From assembly GCA_003242735.1 (NCBI GenBank), contig QGVH01000007.1:62001-126000 (forward strand): 64,000 nucleotides of DNA, in the 5' to 3' direction. The notes under the pieces are model-generated. The model saw only the letters and a program-made list of their open reading frames with translations. It searched no databases and had not been told where the DNA came from. The DNA is from a bacterium. GTDB lineage: Bacteria > Gemmatimonadota > Gemmatimonadetes > Longimicrobiales > RSA9. Of this stretch, positions 46,478-57,002 are shown in pieces. Made by a program: the position numbers and the translations under genes. Every line of letters begins with the position of its first letter. Position 1 is the first letter of the stretch.

Positions 46478-49400
46478 ATGCGCCACAGCCCCTACCTCGA
46501 GATCTTGAAGCAGCGCGTCCTCGTGTACGACGGCGCGATGGGCACGAACATCCAGGCGCTGGGCCTCTCCGCTGCAGACTTCGGAGGCCCGGGTCTCGAG
46601 GGCTGCAACGACCACCTCGTCTTCTCGCGGCCCGATGCGGTGGAACACATCCACGCCTCGTTCCTCGAGGTGGGGTGCGATGTCGTCGAGACGAACACGT
46701 TCCGCTCGAACCGCCTCACGCTCCGCGAGTACGGGCTCCAGGACCGCGTCGTCGAGCTGAACCGGGCCGCTGCCGCTCTCGCCCGCCGCGTCGCCGACCG
46801 GTTCTCGACGCCCGAGCGGCCGCGCTTCGTGGCCGGAAGCATCGGGCCCAGCGGCTTTCTCCCCAGCACGTCCGACCCCACGCTCGGCGACATCACGTAC
46901 GACGAGCTGGCGGACGTGTTCGCCGAGCAGGCGCGGGGGCTCGTCGAGGGCGGCGTGGACGTCCTGCTCATCGAGACGAGCCAGGACATCCTCGAGGTCA
47001 AGGCGCAGATCGCGGGCATCCGGCGCTACTTCCGCGAGGCGGGCGTGTGGCGGCCCGTGCAGGTCCAGGTCACGCTGGATGTCACCGGCCGCATGCTGCT
47101 CGGCACGGACATCGGCGCGGCCATGGTCACCATCGAGGCGCTCCGTGCCGACGTCATCGGGCTCAACTGTTCGACGGGCCCGGAGCACATGCGCCAGCCC
47201 GTGCGCTTCCTGTGCGAGAAGTCCCGGCTGCCCATCAGCGTGATCCCCAACGCGGGCATCCCGCACAACGAGGGAGGCAAGGCGGTCTACCCGCTCACGC
47301 CGGACGAGCTCGCCGCGGCGCACGAGGAGTTCGTCACGCGCCTCGGCGTGGCCATCGTCGGCGGCTGCTGCGGCACCACGCCCGAACACCTGCGCGCGGT
47401 CGTGGAGCGCGTGTGGGGCAGGCCGGTCCGGCCGCGCAGCGTCCCGCGGGTGCCGCGGGTCTCCAGCGCGATGAAGGCGACGTCGCTCGTGCAGGACCCG
47501 GCGCCGACCCTCGTCGGCGAACGCGTCAACGCCCAGGGCTCCCGCAAGGTCAAGCGGCTGTTGCTGGCGGAAGACTACGACGGCGTGCTCCAGGTCGCCC
47601 GCGAGCAGGTCGAGGGCAACGCGCACCTGCTCGACGTGTGCGTCGCGCTCACCGAGCGGCAGGACGAGGCCGAGCAGATGCGTCGGCTGGTCAAGCTGCT
47701 CGCTCAGGGCGTGGACGCGCCGCTGATGTTCGACACCACCGAGGTCGAGGTCGTGGCGGCCGCGCTCAAGCAGTACCCGGGCCGCGGCATCGTCAACTCG
47801 ATCAACCTCGAGAACGGGCGCGCGCGCATCGACGCGGTGCTGCCCCACGTGGTCGAGCACGGCGCCGCCGTCGTCGCGCTCACCATCGACGAGCAGGGGA
47901 TGGCCAAGACGGCGGAGCGCAAGCTCGAGGTCGCCCGCCGCATCTACGACATCGCCACGAAGGAGTACGGGCTCGAGCCCGACGCGCTGATCTTCGACGC
48001 GCTCACGTTCACGCTGGCGACGGGCGAGGCCGAGTACCGGCGGTCGGCGGTGGAGACGATCGAGGGGATCCGGCTCATCAAGCGGGAGCTGCCCGGCGTG
48101 CTCACCATCCTGGGCGTCTCCAACGTGTCGTTCGGGCTCGCGCCCCACGCGCGTGCGGTGCTCAACTCGGTGTTCCTGCACCGGTGCGTCGAGGCGGGAC
48201 TGGATCTCGCGATCGTGAACCCTGCGCACGTGATCCCATACGCCGAGATCGCGCCGGAGGAGCGCGAGCTCGCGGACGACCTGATCTTCGACCGCCGCGA
48301 GGACGCGCTGGCGCGCTTCATCGCGTACTACGAGACGCACCGGGCGCCTGAGGTCGAGGTCGCCGACCCGACGGCGGACATGACGCCCGAGGAGGCGATC
48401 CGCTGGAAGATCGTCCACCGCCAGAAGGACGGGATCGAGGAACTGGTGGATCGGGCGGTGGCGGCGCGTGCTCGACGCGCGCCGGGGGCCGCTTCGCGGT
48501 GCTCCGGCCCTTCGGGCCTGGGCTCCGATCCGTCGGCCCCGGGCCCCGCTCGGCTGGATGCTGGCGCGTGGCCTGGCGCGGCGGAGCCCGGCGGCGGAGC
48601 GGCGGAACCCCTCCGCGTCGCCTCCACGCACGACGCCGCCGTCTGGGTCCTGAACAACGTCCTGCTCCCGGCCATGAAGGAGGTCGGCGACAGGTTCGGC
48701 GCCGGCGAGCTGATCCTGCCGTTCGTGCTCCAGAGCGCGGAGGTCATGAAGCGCGCCGTCGCGCGGCTGGAGACGTACCTCGACAAGGTCGAGGGGCAGA
48801 GCAAGGGCCGGGTCGTGCTGGCCACCGTGTTCGGCGACGTGCACGACATCGGCAAGAACCTCGTGCACACCATCCTGGCCAACAACGGCTACACCGTCTA
48901 CGACCTGGGCAAGCAGGTCCCGATCAACGTCATCATCGAGAAGGCCCAGGAGGTGAACGCGGACGCCATTGGCCTCTCCGCGCTCCTCGTCTCGACGTCC
49001 AAGCAGATGCCGCTGTGCGTGCAGGAGTTACACGCGCGCGGCCTCCGGTTCCCCGTGCTGTGTGGCGGCGCGGCGATCAACCCGTCGTTCGTCCGGGCCG
49101 CCGCGTTCGTGGACGAGGCGAAGACCGAGCTGTACGCCCCCGGCGTCTTCTACTGCAAGGACGCGTTCGAGGGGCTCGCCGTGGTGGAGGCGCTCGTGGA
49201 CCCGGAACGGCGCGAGGCGTTCATTGCCCAGCGTCGCCAGGAGATCCTCGAGGGCGTGGCGCGCCGCGCCGAGCTGGTGGAGAAGGCGCGGGCGGCGCGC
49301 CCCGCGCGCACCGGGAGCGGGCCACGTCGCGACATCGAGATCCCCACGCCTGCGTTCTGGGGCACCAAGGTGCTCGAACGGCTCCCGCCCGCCGAGCTGT

Positions 49401-50098
49401 ACCGCTACATCGACCTCAACACGCTGTACCGGCTGCACTGGGGCGCGAAGAACGCGAAAGGCGAGCAGTGGGAGCGGCTCGTGCGCGAGGAGTTCGAGCC
49501 GCGGCTCGAGCGCTACCGCAAGGAGGTTCAGGCCAGCGGCCTGCTCCAGGTGCGGGCGGCGTACGGCTTCTTCCCGGCCGCGGCCGAGGGAGATGACCTG
49601 GTCGTCTTCGACCCCGAGGACCACACGACCGAGATCGCGCGCTTCCGGTTCCCGCGGCAGCGGGACCGCGACCGCCTCTGCCTCGCCGACTACTTCGCGC
49701 CGACGAACGGCACGCGGCCGGTGGACGTGGTCGGCTTCCAGGTCGTCACCGTGGGCGATCGGCTGCTCGAGCGCGCCAACGCGCTCATGAAGGGCGGCGA
49801 CTACAGCGAGGGTTACTACCTGCACGGCTTCGGCGTGCGCCTGGCCGAGGCGGCCGCGGAGTACGTGCACCGGCTGATGCGCCGCGAGCTCGGCATCCCG
49901 ATGAACCGCGGGCTGCGCTACTCGTGGGGCTACCCCGCATGCCCGGACCACCGCCAGCACGAGATCCTGTTCCGCCTGCTGCCCGCCCGTGAGCGGCTGG
50001 GAATGGACCTGACGGAGGCAGGGGCGCTGGTGCCCGAGCTGTCCACGGCGGCGATCGTGGTGCACCACCCGGAGGCGAAGTACTTCAGCGCGGCGTGA
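46478..50098 (+). CDS. metH: Cobalamin-dependent methionine synthase
   Basis: A 1206-residue full-length MetH, transferring the methyl group of 5-methyl-tetrahydrofolate to homocysteine. The homocysteine domain (about 1-310) has zinc ligands C231, C297 and C298 (GGCCGTTPEH). A pterin-binding domain (about 340-640) has LVGERVNAQGSRK. The cap and B12 domains (about 640-915) have the cobalt-ligand H789 in GDVHDIGKN, and the AdoMet reactivation domain (about 950-1206) has RYSWGYPACPDH. A Gly/Pro/Ala-rich insert (about 664-708) interrupts the cap domain. No clear Shine-Dalgarno precedes the ATG; the terminator-like hairpin does. Confidence 0.97.
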   Translation: MRHSPYLEILKQRVLVYDGAMGTNIQALGLSAADFGGPGLEGCNDHLVFSRPDAVEHIHASFLEVGCDVVETNTFRSNRLTLREYGLQDRVVELNRAAAALARRVADRFSTPERPRFVAGSIGPSGFLPSTSDPTLGDITYDELADVFAEQARGLVEGGVDVLLIETSQDILEVKAQIAGIRRYFREAGVWRPVQVQVTLDVTGRMLLGTDIGAAMVTIEALRADVIGLNCSTGPEHMRQPVRFLCEKSRLPISVIPNAGIPHNEGGKAVYPLTPDELAAAHEEFVTRLGVAIVGGCCGTTPEHLRAVVERVWGRPVRPRSVPRVPRVSSAMKATSLVQDPAPTLVGERVNAQGSRKVKRLLLAEDYDGVLQVAREQVEGNAHLLDVCVALTERQDEAEQMRRLVKLLAQGVDAPLMFDTTEVEVVAAALKQYPGRGIVNSINLENGRARIDAVLPHVVEHGAAVVALTIDEQGMAKTAERKLEVARRIYDIATKEYGLEPDALIFDALTFTLATGEAEYRRSAVETIEGIRLIKRELPGVLTILGVSNVSFGLAPHARAVLNSVFLHRCVEAGLDLAIVNPAHVIPYAEIAPEERELADDLIFDRREDALARFIAYYETHRAPEVEVADPTADMTPEEAIRWKIVHRQKDGIEELVDRAVAARARRAPGAASRCSGPSGLGSDPSAPGPARLDAGAWPGAAEPGGGAAEPLRVASTHDAAVWVLNNVLLPAMKEVGDRFGAGELILPFVLQSAEVMKRAVARLETYLDKVEGQSKGRVVLATVFGDVHDIGKNLVHTILANNGYTVYDLGKQVPINVIIEKAQEVNADAIGLSALLVSTSKQMPLCVQELHARGLRFPVLCGGAAINPSFVRAAAFVDEAKTELYAPGVFYCKDAFEGLAVVEALVDPERREAFIAQRRQEILEGVARRAELVEKARAARPARTGSGPRRDIEIPTPAFWGTKVLERLPPAELYRYIDLNTLYRLHWGAKNAKGEQWERLVREEFEPRLERYRKEVQASGLLQVRAAYGFFPAAAEGDDLVVFDPEDHTTEIARFRFPRQRDRDRLCLADYFAPTNGTRPVDVVGFQVVTVGDRLLERANALMKGGDYSEGYYLHGFGVRLAEAAAEYVHRLMRRELGIPMNRGLRYSWGYPACPDHRQHEILFRLLPARERLGMDLTEAGALVPELSTAAIVVHHPEAKYFSAA

Positions 50099-50134: not shown

Positions 50135-52090
<1,956 letters not shown>

Positions 52091-52347: not shown

Positions 52348-52799
52348 GCTTGATCCGTCCTGCCGCGGTCTTGAGCCGCCAAGGGGAGGGAGCCTTCGTT
52401 CGGTGGACGCCCGACGGCGACTTCGTGGGCGAGGAACCTGTCCGCGGTCTGTTGTGGGGAGGGCGGTTTCGTCTGGCTGGCGGCGGAGCAGTGTACAAGG
52501 TGTACGAGAGAACGGTTGATGGAAGGCCGCATCTTCGCCTTCTCCAAGCGGTGGAGGGAAGGGCACCGCATCCGATGGGTTTCACGGGTGCTCCGTCGGT
52601 CCCCGGGAAGTGTCCAAGCTGTCCTCGGTTCGGTGCATCCGCGCAACCGCTGTTCGTCGAGGGATTCATTCGGGATGCGCAGGGCGATCGGGTCGTGACC
52701 GTGACGACCGCCAGCTACAGGCTCGACGTGATCGAGGATGGCAGGATCGCTCACAGCATACGGCGCGATATCCCGCCGACCCGCCTGACCGACCAGCTT
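52348..52799 (+). pseudogene. Beta-propeller protein, 5' fragment cut by an IS3 remnant
   Basis: The frame reads LSRQGEGAFVRWTPDGDFVGEEPVRGLLWGGRF, with later RLVEGFIRDAQGDRV-like segments, and ends in RLTDQL at the edge of the insertion sequence. The next codons come from the IS end. This pattern is that of secreted six-bladed beta-propeller proteins, but the N-terminal signal and first blades are missing and there is no proper start codon, so the gene was already truncated. The continuation is found after the IS from 53324, where the last 395 bp are repeated. Confidence 0.7.
52405..52799 (+). repeat. 395-bp direct repeat, copy 1
   Basis: Bases 52405-52799 are identical, as far as I can read base by base, to 53324-53718 (constant offset 919). 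The repeat is internal beta-propeller coding sequence. It abuts the left end of the IS3 remnant. It is far too long for an IS3 target duplication, which is 3-5 bp. Confidence 0.92.
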
Positions 52800-53323: not shown

Positions 53324-53718
53324 GGACGCCCGACGGCGACTTCGTGGGCGAGGAACCTGTCCGCGGTCTGTTGTGGGGAGGGCGGTTTCGTCTGGCTGGC
53401 GGCGGAGCAGTGTACAAGGTGTACGAGAGAACGGTTGATGGAAGGCCGCATCTTCGCCTTCTCCAAGCGGTGGAGGGAAGGGCACCGCATCCGATGGGTT
53501 TCACGGGTGCTCCGTCGGTCCCCGGGAAGTGTCCAAGCTGTCCTCGGTTCGGTGCATCCGCGCAACCGCTGTTCGTCGAGGGATTCATTCGGGATGCGCA
53601 GGGCGATCGGGTCGTGACCGTGACGACCGCCAGCTACAGGCTCGACGTGATCGAGGATGGCAGGATCGCTCACAGCATACGGCGCGATATCCCGCCGACC
53701 CGCCTGACCGACCAGCTT
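53324..53718 (+). repeat. 395-bp direct repeat, copy 2
   Basis: Identical to 52405-52799. It abuts the right end of the IS3 remnant, so the order is unique-left, repeat, IS, repeat, unique-right. Sequence identity shows that the event is recent, or that the assembly duplicated it. Confidence 0.92.
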
Positions 53719-56135: not shown

Positions 56136-57002
56136 ATGCCCGAGCTCCCTTTCGCCAAGGGCCAGGCCCTCGGCAACGACTACCTCGTCATTGACGCCGC
56201 GGACCTGCCGTGGCCGCTCGAGCCGCACCGCATCCGTCTGCTCTGCGACCGCCACCGTGGCATCGGATCCGACGGCATCCTGCTCGGCTTCCTGGACGAG
56301 ACGCCGATCCGGCTGCGCATCTACAACCCGGACGGCAGCGAGGCGGAGAAGAGCGGCAACGGGCTGCGCATCTTCGCCGCGTACCTGCACGGCCGCGGCA
56401 TCGTGCGGGACGAGCCGTTCACGGTCGCGCTGCCGAAGGACACGGTGGAAATGCGCGTCGAGTCGACGCTGCCGGACGGCCAGCTCATGATCGCCGTCGA
56501 CATCGGCACGCCGTCGTTCCGCGGCGCCGACGTCGGCTTCAAGCCCGAGCCGGGCGAGGCGCTGGGCGCGGAGCTGGACCTGGGCGAGGCGGGCACGGCG
56601 CGCGTCAACCCGGTCTCGCTCGGCAACCCGCACTGCGTGGTGTTCGTGGACGAGCTGGACCGCGCGGACTTCCTGCGCCGCGCGCCCGCCCTCGCCACGC
56701 ACCCCGCCTTCGTTGCCGGCACGAACGTGCAGTTCGCGCGCGTGGCGGGGCCGGACCGGCTCGAGGCGTGGATCTGGGAGCGGGGCGCGGGCGAGACGCT
56801 GGCCTCCGGGTCGAGCGCGAGCGCGGTCGCGGCCGCGGCGAGGCGGCTGGGCCTCGTCGCCGCGCGGGAGCTGGTGGTGGACATGCCGGGCGGGCAGGTC
56901 CAGATCCAGGTGGGTGAAGGCGAAGCGCTGCGGCTGCGCGGCCCCGCGGAGATCGTCTATCACGGCCGCGTTGCGGAGCCGGTCGTGCGGCGCTTGTCGT
57001 GA
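56136..57002 (+). CDS. Diaminopimelate epimerase family protein lacking both catalytic cysteines
   Basis: A 288-residue protein with the complete DapF two-lobed pattern: QALGNDYLVID, DRHRGIGSDG, NPDGSEAEKSGNGLR, VSLGNPHCVVFV, WERGAGETLASGSSAS and MPGGQV. In true DapF the two catalytic bases are cysteines in CGNG and ACGSG. Here both are serine, S73 (codon 56352) and S224 (codon 56805). The substrate-binding Asn and Glu-Arg residues remain. It may be a DapF-like isomerase with a different mechanism or substrate, or a poorly active epimerase. It is monocistronic. Confidence 0.88.
   Translation: MPELPFAKGQALGNDYLVIDAADLPWPLEPHRIRLLCDRHRGIGSDGILLGFLDETPIRLRIYNPDGSEAEKSGNGLRIFAAYLHGRGIVRDEPFTVALPKDTVEMRVESTLPDGQLMIAVDIGTPSFRGADVGFKPEPGEALGAELDLGEAGTARVNPVSLGNPHCVVFVDELDRADFLRRAPALATHPAFVAGTNVQFARVAGPDRLEAWIWERGAGETLASGSSASAVAAAARRLGLVAARELVVDMPGGQVQIQVGEGEALRLRGPAEIVYHGRVAEPVVRRLS

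Follow-up and report, generated by a model that had tools for sequence, protein, structure and literature searches.

Diaminopimelate (DAP) epimerase, DapF, is the textbook example of a thiolate that deprotonates a very weak carbon acid. The known enzymes of this type rely on a thiolate paired with a thiol, and the two cysteines are regarded as the hallmark of DapF and are targeted in the design of inhibitors. The O-ureidoserine racemase DcsC (PDB 7vdy), the histidine racemases HisR/CntK and the Dab racemase PddB have the DapF-like fold in common with the protein described below and act on substrates other than DAP. DcsC and CntK rely on Cys/Cys catalysis too. The same is described for HisR and PddB (PMC11602996; PMC8225329). 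Exchange of cysteine for serine left less than 0.1% of the activity in PddB, the same being cited there for Mt-DapF (PMC8225329), and greatly reduced the turnover of HisR (PMC11602996). The C73S and C217S variants of Haemophilus influenzae DapF (PDB 2q9h, 2q9j) keep the same fold with one serine at one position, and single cysteine changes such as these are described as hindering catalysis (PMC12039745). As such mutants of relatives are nearly dead, the natural fixation of serine at both positions is surprising.

We take the Asp/Glu racemases EcL-DER and MMP0739 not to be homologues of DapF. With one cysteine and one threonine they carry a natural hydroxyl at one catalytic position, and human trans-3-hydroxyproline dehydratase presents a natural cysteine-to-threonine change, also at one catalytic position (PMC8142540). 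Only one thiol is replaced in these three enzymes, unlike in the DapF considered here, and the activity of the natural one-threonine enzymes is one-way, predicted to be one-way, or turned to elimination (PMC8142540). In the accessible portions of the open-access literature, we found no report of a natural Ser/Ser DapF or of one with both thiols replaced, and those on cell walls in Verrucomicrobium, Gemmatimonadota, Aquificota and the group of the host provided nothing relevant save an abstract on Persephonella. Automatic database annotation reportedly remarks that such proteins "could lack activity."

A DapF Homologue With Serine at Both Catalytic Positions

The window, i.e., the whole stretch of 64,000 nucleotides analysed here, belongs to the genome of a member of the Gemmatimonadota (3.71 Mb, 99.6% complete) and contains a dapF gene (Table 1) whose translation includes NPDGSEAEKSGNGLRIF and WERGAGETLASGSSASAVA. 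The protein is recognised by the TIGR00652 DapF equivalog model (198.8 bits, for a cut-off of 114.65) and by the Pfam family PF01678, and it fails the model of the bifunctional DapF/glutamate racemase NF038284 (48.6 bits, for a cut-off of 350). Aligned with Escherichia coli DapF, its S73 corresponds to C73, S224 to C217 and S227 to G220. The original prediction that serines replace both catalytic cysteines, and that the other substrate-binding residues are kept, was thus borne out: the DAP-binding set of E. coli (N11, N64, N75, N157, N190, E208, R209 and S/T219) is complete in the window protein, while neither of the two cysteines by which DapF is defined is present. Its cysteines are C37 and C167, with no others. 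A sequencing or assembly error was ruled out, as was chance, because the serines recur in 83 of the 85 genomes of the same order with a match, as they do in many phyla. The protein is a DapF by homology and, as a catalyst, falls outside the definition by cysteines; it may be filed as a Ser/Ser variant that would function like DapF.

Table 1. Position of the window dapF gene and of its diagnostic codons (rows refer to the alignment of 331 sequences).
Feature	Position	Strand	Remark
dapF, Ser/Ser subfamily	56136..57002	+	288 aa; sole PF01678 gene found in genome
Lys72 codon, basic residue preceding Ser73	56349..56351	+	Lys/Arg in 177/177 Ser/Ser rows and 0/151 Cys/Cys rows
Ser73 codon AGC, replaces first catalytic Cys (C73)	56352..56354	+	N-end of model helix 74-86
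Ile79 codon	56370..56372	+	Ile/Val in 177/177 Ser/Ser rows; Cys in 146/151 Cys/Cys rows
Gln199 codon	56730..56732	+	Gln in 177/177 Ser/Ser rows and 0/151 Cys/Cys rows
Ser224 codon TCC, replaces second catalytic Cys (C217)	56805..56807	+	N-end of model helix 225-237
Ser227 codon, replaces Gly220	56814..56816	+	Ser in 176/177 Ser/Ser rows; Gly in 151/151 Cys/Cys rows

The AlphaFold2 model of the window protein (41 sequences; pLDDT 95.9, pTM 0.92) adopts the two-domain DapF fold with the catalytic positions at helix N-ends, S73 and S224 each standing immediately before a helix (Table 1). Its top structural match was O-ureidoserine racemase (7vdy, Z 36.3), and DapF structures of several species matched at Z 28-36, including the engineered C73S and C217S mutants. 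Canonical DapF (TIGR00652; E. coli, H. influenzae, Corynebacterium glutamicum, Anabaena) shares with the Ser/Ser form its fold, its length, the DAP-binding residues, the helix-N-end location of the catalytic positions and the place in the pathway. The Ser/Ser form differs from it by serine for both cysteines, Ile/Val for C79, serine for G220, a basic residue 72 and Gln199. By contrast with the H. influenzae variants, which are laboratory single mutants, both of its replacements are natural and come with co-conserved neighbours.

Upstream of dapF, the window carries a perfect direct repeat of 300 nt (52405-52704 and 53324-53623, 919 nt from start to start). Two long adjacent frames, 46478-50098 (1206 aa) and 50135-52090 (651 aa), presumably encode a methionine synthase and a homocysteine-methyltransferase/MTHFR fusion.

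Distribution and Phylogeny of the Ser/Ser Type

The Ser/Ser type was found throughout the order of the host and was absent from the DapF read elsewhere in the phylum. A search of the phylum covered 298 genomes and found DapF in 283 of them; the order of the window, presumably Longimicrobiales, accounts for 90 of the 298, and 85 of these 90 had a match. Among the 85 proteins read, 83 were Ser/Ser and two were contig-end fragments displaying S224 only, with cysteine at neither position. The five remaining draft genomes of the order had no DapF match (G142, G146, G095, G116 and G264), and G142 and G146 encode a LysA over the cut-off. Outside the order, 20 matches were read (14 from the same class, six from the phylum only), and all 20 were Cys/Cys. 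Beyond the phylum, scanning genome contigs with the in-order alignment confirmed at least 334 relatives and returned 80 loci, many of them from metagenome bins. Among the matches listed, these loci came from Dadabacteria, Rokubacteria, Armatimonadota, Aquificota, Bacteroidota, Verrucomicrobiota, Chloroflexota, Spirochaetota, Nitrospirota, Planctomycetota, Cyanobacteria, Pseudomonas, Clostridium and others, and 80 of 80 were Ser/Ser; as the scan patterns themselves contain the serines, this set gives the breadth of the type and not its frequency. A plasmid search with the window protein returned 116 records, each below 60% identity.

An alignment of 331 sequences, E. coli DapF included, comprised 177 Ser/Ser rows (174 distinct), 151 Cys/Cys rows, three fragments and no mixed protein. 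In a tree computed without the columns 72, 73, 79, 199, 224, 226 and 227 from 44 Ser/Ser rows and 64 of the Cys/Cys class, a single branch divides all Ser/Ser proteins from the rest (bootstrap 100, SH-aLRT 100), and the same split was present in an earlier tree of 98 rows that retained column 199 (SH-aLRT 99). The suspicion that Ser/Ser members form a distinct subfamily is in line with both trees, in which the named rows closest to the window protein were Gemmatimonadota. A single origin would be the simplest reading of these alignments, and not a proof, because the trees have no outgroup root. Phyla are mixed within the Ser/Ser group, e.g., Bacteroidota with Aquificota at 99 in the 98-row tree, which indicates spread between lineages. 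The Ser/Ser DapF is real, widespread, situated on a single branch and left unexplained by the textbook mechanism.

Four further positions separate the two classes almost without exception (residues 72, 79, 199 and 227, Table 1). The DAP-binding residues N14, N64, N75, N197 and E215, together with H166, were kept in all 177 Ser/Ser rows, and N164 and R216 in 176 of them; each member of the E. coli DAP-binding set, S/T219 included, has its counterpart in 176-177 of these rows. N164, the counterpart of E. coli N157, is present in just 19 of the 151 Cys/Cys rows, so that the Ser/Ser proteins are here like those of the E. coli and C. glutamicum kind. In C. glutamicum DapF (CgDapF), alanine changes of the matching DAP-binding residues nearly abolish activity (PMC5296763); given that these residues are kept, the substrate of the Ser/Ser proteins is, from their sequences, most likely still DAP. 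Of the two cysteines left in the window protein, Cys37, found in 177/177 Ser/Ser rows, was discarded as a clade-specific residue since it is also present in 129/151 Cys/Cys rows, and Cys167 (in GNPHC) was ruled out as a general replacement thiol, being another residue in 57/177 Ser/Ser rows.

Ser/Ser DapF as Mostly the Sole DapF of Its Hosts

In the host genome, the matches to PF01678 were the two halves of the window dapF, and no second, Cys/Cys DapF was found by this search. The Ser/Ser protein is thus the sole DapF found in the organism, the situation in which the original prediction saw a need to rethink the meso-DAP route. Outside the phylum of the host, 39 genomes, each with a Ser/Ser locus, were checked for DapF copies: 31 had one DapF, the identity of which with the Ser/Ser locus was inferred from its being the sole match, one had two Ser/Ser copies, and seven had an additional Cys/Cys copy. 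Ser/Ser DapF therefore stood alone in 32 of the 39, and the Ser/Ser copy of the other seven may serve another role, as a Cys/Cys copy is present as well. In genomes with both types (Pseudomonas L085, Clostridium L097 and L106, and the cyanobacterium L125), ten proteins encoded near the Ser/Ser dapF were scanned, and none of them proved to be a lysine or cell-wall protein. This cyanobacterium, Westiellopsis (G331; L174, L175, L125), encodes three DapF, of which two are Cys/Cys and the third is Ser/Ser, as well as two plant-type DapL; one dapL adjoins a Cys/Cys dapF. A Trueperaceae genome (G320; L181, L182) encodes two different Ser/Ser DapF, and no Cys/Cys form was found in it.

Samples of three phyla were read, each around a centre chosen for being Ser/Ser. 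The Bacteroidota sample (61 genomes) held 60 Cys/Cys forms and one Ser/Ser form, which was the centre; the Aquificota sample (41 genomes) held 32 Cys/Cys and nine Ser/Ser forms, centre included; and 36 of the 39 Verrucomicrobiota genomes had a match, namely 30 Cys/Cys, five Ser/Ser (centre included) and one fragment. Pooled, this amounts to 15 Ser/Ser and 122 Cys/Cys forms plus the fragment, with exactly one DapF per matched genome. Three of the 15 Ser/Ser genomes are the centres, and a single event may underlie several hosts of the same sample; the number of independent cases is therefore that of a few phyla and not 15. The two forms exclude each other in these three samples, as interchangeable enzymes would.

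Lysine and Cell-Wall Pathway of the Hosts

The pathway around the window DapF looks like that of a meso-DAP user. The host genome encodes a LysA (492 bits) and a dapB product over their cut-offs, as well as a MurE over the cut-off of the DAP-ligase equivalog and with the TSDNPR motif. To our knowledge, DAP dehydrogenase is the one bypass of DAP epimerase. With LysA and a DAP-type MurE present and no match to DAP dehydrogenase in the genome, the window protein is the sole candidate epimerase of a host that requires meso-DAP. A search for DapL in the same genome revealed no plant-type enzyme over the cut-off. The strongest candidate for an LL-DAP aminotransferase is nearest to the models TIGR03540 and PRK09276 and lies under the cut-offs of both (480 bits, for a TIGR03540 cut-off of 593). 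A second MurE-like ligase (G000:C9:39300-40667; L170:11217-12998) is located about 2 kb from lysA and scores about 236 bits, for a cut-off of 257.

Other genomes mostly encode LysA and a DAP-type MurE as well. LysA was over the cut-off in 51 of 54 genomes of the phylum, inside and outside the order. Among Ser/Ser hosts elsewhere, it was over the cut-off in 44 of 51, two of the 51 having no match. MurE was over the cut-off in 77 of 80 genomes, and the DNPR motif was read in 28 of 30 MurE loci, one of which came from a Cys/Cys genome. A DAP dehydrogenase bypass was rejected, since the enzyme was matched in one of 80 genomes (65 of the 80 being Ser/Ser hosts or in-order genomes) and had no match in the host. 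The genome concerned (G311; L091) is also among the two without a LysA match. DapB was over the cut-off in 48 of 62 genomes, so that some pathways appear incomplete by the models used. Plant-type DapL was over the cut-off in 11 of the 80 genomes, each of which is a Ser/Ser host from another order, and in none of the 26 in-order genomes searched. Ser/Ser Aquificota include Hydrogenothermaceae (L061, L069), the family to which Persephonella presumably belongs, and none of the analysed sequences is labelled Persephonella. As Persephonella is obligately chemosynthetic (PMC3635849), these hosts should make their own lysine.

Gene neighbourhood was informative in a minority of loci. No lysine gene was seen by eye among the listed open reading frames of the window beside dapF. 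In the flanks of the 80 loci, plant-type DapL was present in five and LysA in seven. With the aminotransferase gene of L071 (see below), 10 of the 80 loci, belonging to three phyla, have dapL or lysA near dapF, or 12 of 80 if the putative aminotransferases flanking L074 and L075 are included; no lysine gene was found in the flanks of the remaining loci. Both genes are linked to dapF in Bacteroidota, where Tangfeifania has dapF and lysA on the same strand and dapL divergent. Spirochaetota showed the orders alr - dapF - M20 amidohydrolase - lysA (L094), dapF - alr - M20 - carboxypeptidase-like gene - lysA (L109) and dapF - alr - M20 - one opposite-strand gene - partial lysA (L066). At the Chloroflexota locus L071, dapF is convergent with the adjacent gene of an LL-DAP aminotransferase (541, for a PRK09276 cut-off of 507). 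In six Dadabacteria loci (L054, L058, L063, L067, L068, L092), the Ser/Ser dapF adjoins a conserved gene set, which we take to resemble menaquinone genes of the futalosine pathway.

Discussion

Taken together, these data make it probable that the window protein is the DAP epimerase of the cell and belongs to a cross-phylum subfamily devoid of catalytic thiols, in which Ser73 and Ser224 most likely serve as base and acid; activity on DAP and the part of the serines in proton transfer are both inferred. From a mechanistic point of view, the enzyme would convert LL-DAP into meso-DAP, feeding peptidoglycan through MurE and lysine through LysA, and would hold its substrate as ordinary DapF does, judging from the binding residues kept. 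Ser73 and Ser224, at helix N-ends, would act as base and acid in place of the thiolate and the thiol; the co-conserved Lys/Arg72 and Ser227 may lower the serine pKa or relay a proton, and the helix ends may assist proton transfer by the serines. We give an even chance to the more complete proposal, namely a natural cofactor-independent amino-acid epimerase without catalytic cysteine, in which the Ser/Ser pair would provide the two bases of the 1,1-proton transfer and would be tuned by the invariant Lys/Arg72 and by Ser227. From one origin, this enzyme would have spread across many phyla and taken the place of the thiol form in making meso-DAP, an essential step, as a DapF proof against oxidation and thiol reagents. 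In CgDapF, a disulfide of the catalytic pair closes the active site (PMC5296763), which is impossible in the Ser/Ser form. As both catalytic cysteines are replaced, the latter has no such disulfide and is predicted to resist thiol reagents.

A DAP epimerase may also operate with another base, i.e., Lys/Arg72, His166, Glu215 or a bound water, or with the A-S-G triad (223-225) modified into an MIO-like electrophile. This is a minor possibility in our estimation. MIO enzymes indeed form their MIO group autocatalytically from Ala-Ser-Gly, the basic residue 72 is invariant in the Ser/Ser clade alone (Table 1), and Ala occupies position 223 in 160 of the 177 Ser/Ser rows, so that the triad is usually present. 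However, Ala223 is equally common in the Cys class (139/151), the triad thus following from the cysteine-to-serine change alone, and residue 223 is Ser or Thr in 17 of 177 Ser/Ser rows. Moreover, both positions are fixed as serine and no other small residue, which suggests that the hydroxyls matter.

That the protein binds DAP without catalysis, as a regulator or partner, while another enzyme makes meso-DAP, would agree with the near loss of activity in cysteine-to-serine mutants of relatives (PMC8225329; PMC11602996), with the Cys/Cys copy retained alongside in seven of 39 genomes and with the two in-order drafts that have LysA and no DapF match. We nevertheless consider such a pseudo-epimerase improbable, in view of the Ser/Ser form being the sole DapF in 32 of the 39 genomes taken from beyond the order and the sole PF01678 gene of the host, of the rarity of the dehydrogenase bypass (1/80), of the mutual exclusion of the two forms in three phylum samples, and of catalytic-site residues conserved at least as well as in the Cys class. 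The original prediction had listed a different isomerase, another substrate or a weak serine-based epimerase, and the first two find no support here. A cysteine-to-threonine change does turn a relative of proline racemase and 3-hydroxyproline epimerase into a dehydratase (PMC8142540), and HisR and PddB are DapF-like proteins able to change substrate. Another amino acid substrate, or another reaction such as elimination, is nonetheless very improbable here: the clade keeps its DAP-binding residues with hardly an exception, dapL, lysA or alr lies near dapF in loci of three phyla (dapL or lysA in 10 of 80), and the Cys/Cys gene was replaced and not supplemented in three phylum samples, though both occur in seven of 39 other genomes. 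The meso-DAP route of these bacteria looks ordinary, and it is the catalytic residues, rather than the route, that need rethinking.

A clade without either catalytic thiol is mostly the sole DapF of its hosts; if the proposed function is true, thiols are dispensable for this chemistry, and the Ser/Ser clade is a natural starting point to find what epimerase chemistry requires. Inhibitors of DapF directed at cysteine would, as this suggests, miss Ser/Ser bacteria, and annotation relying on the cysteine motif could score functional lysine and cell-wall pathways as broken.
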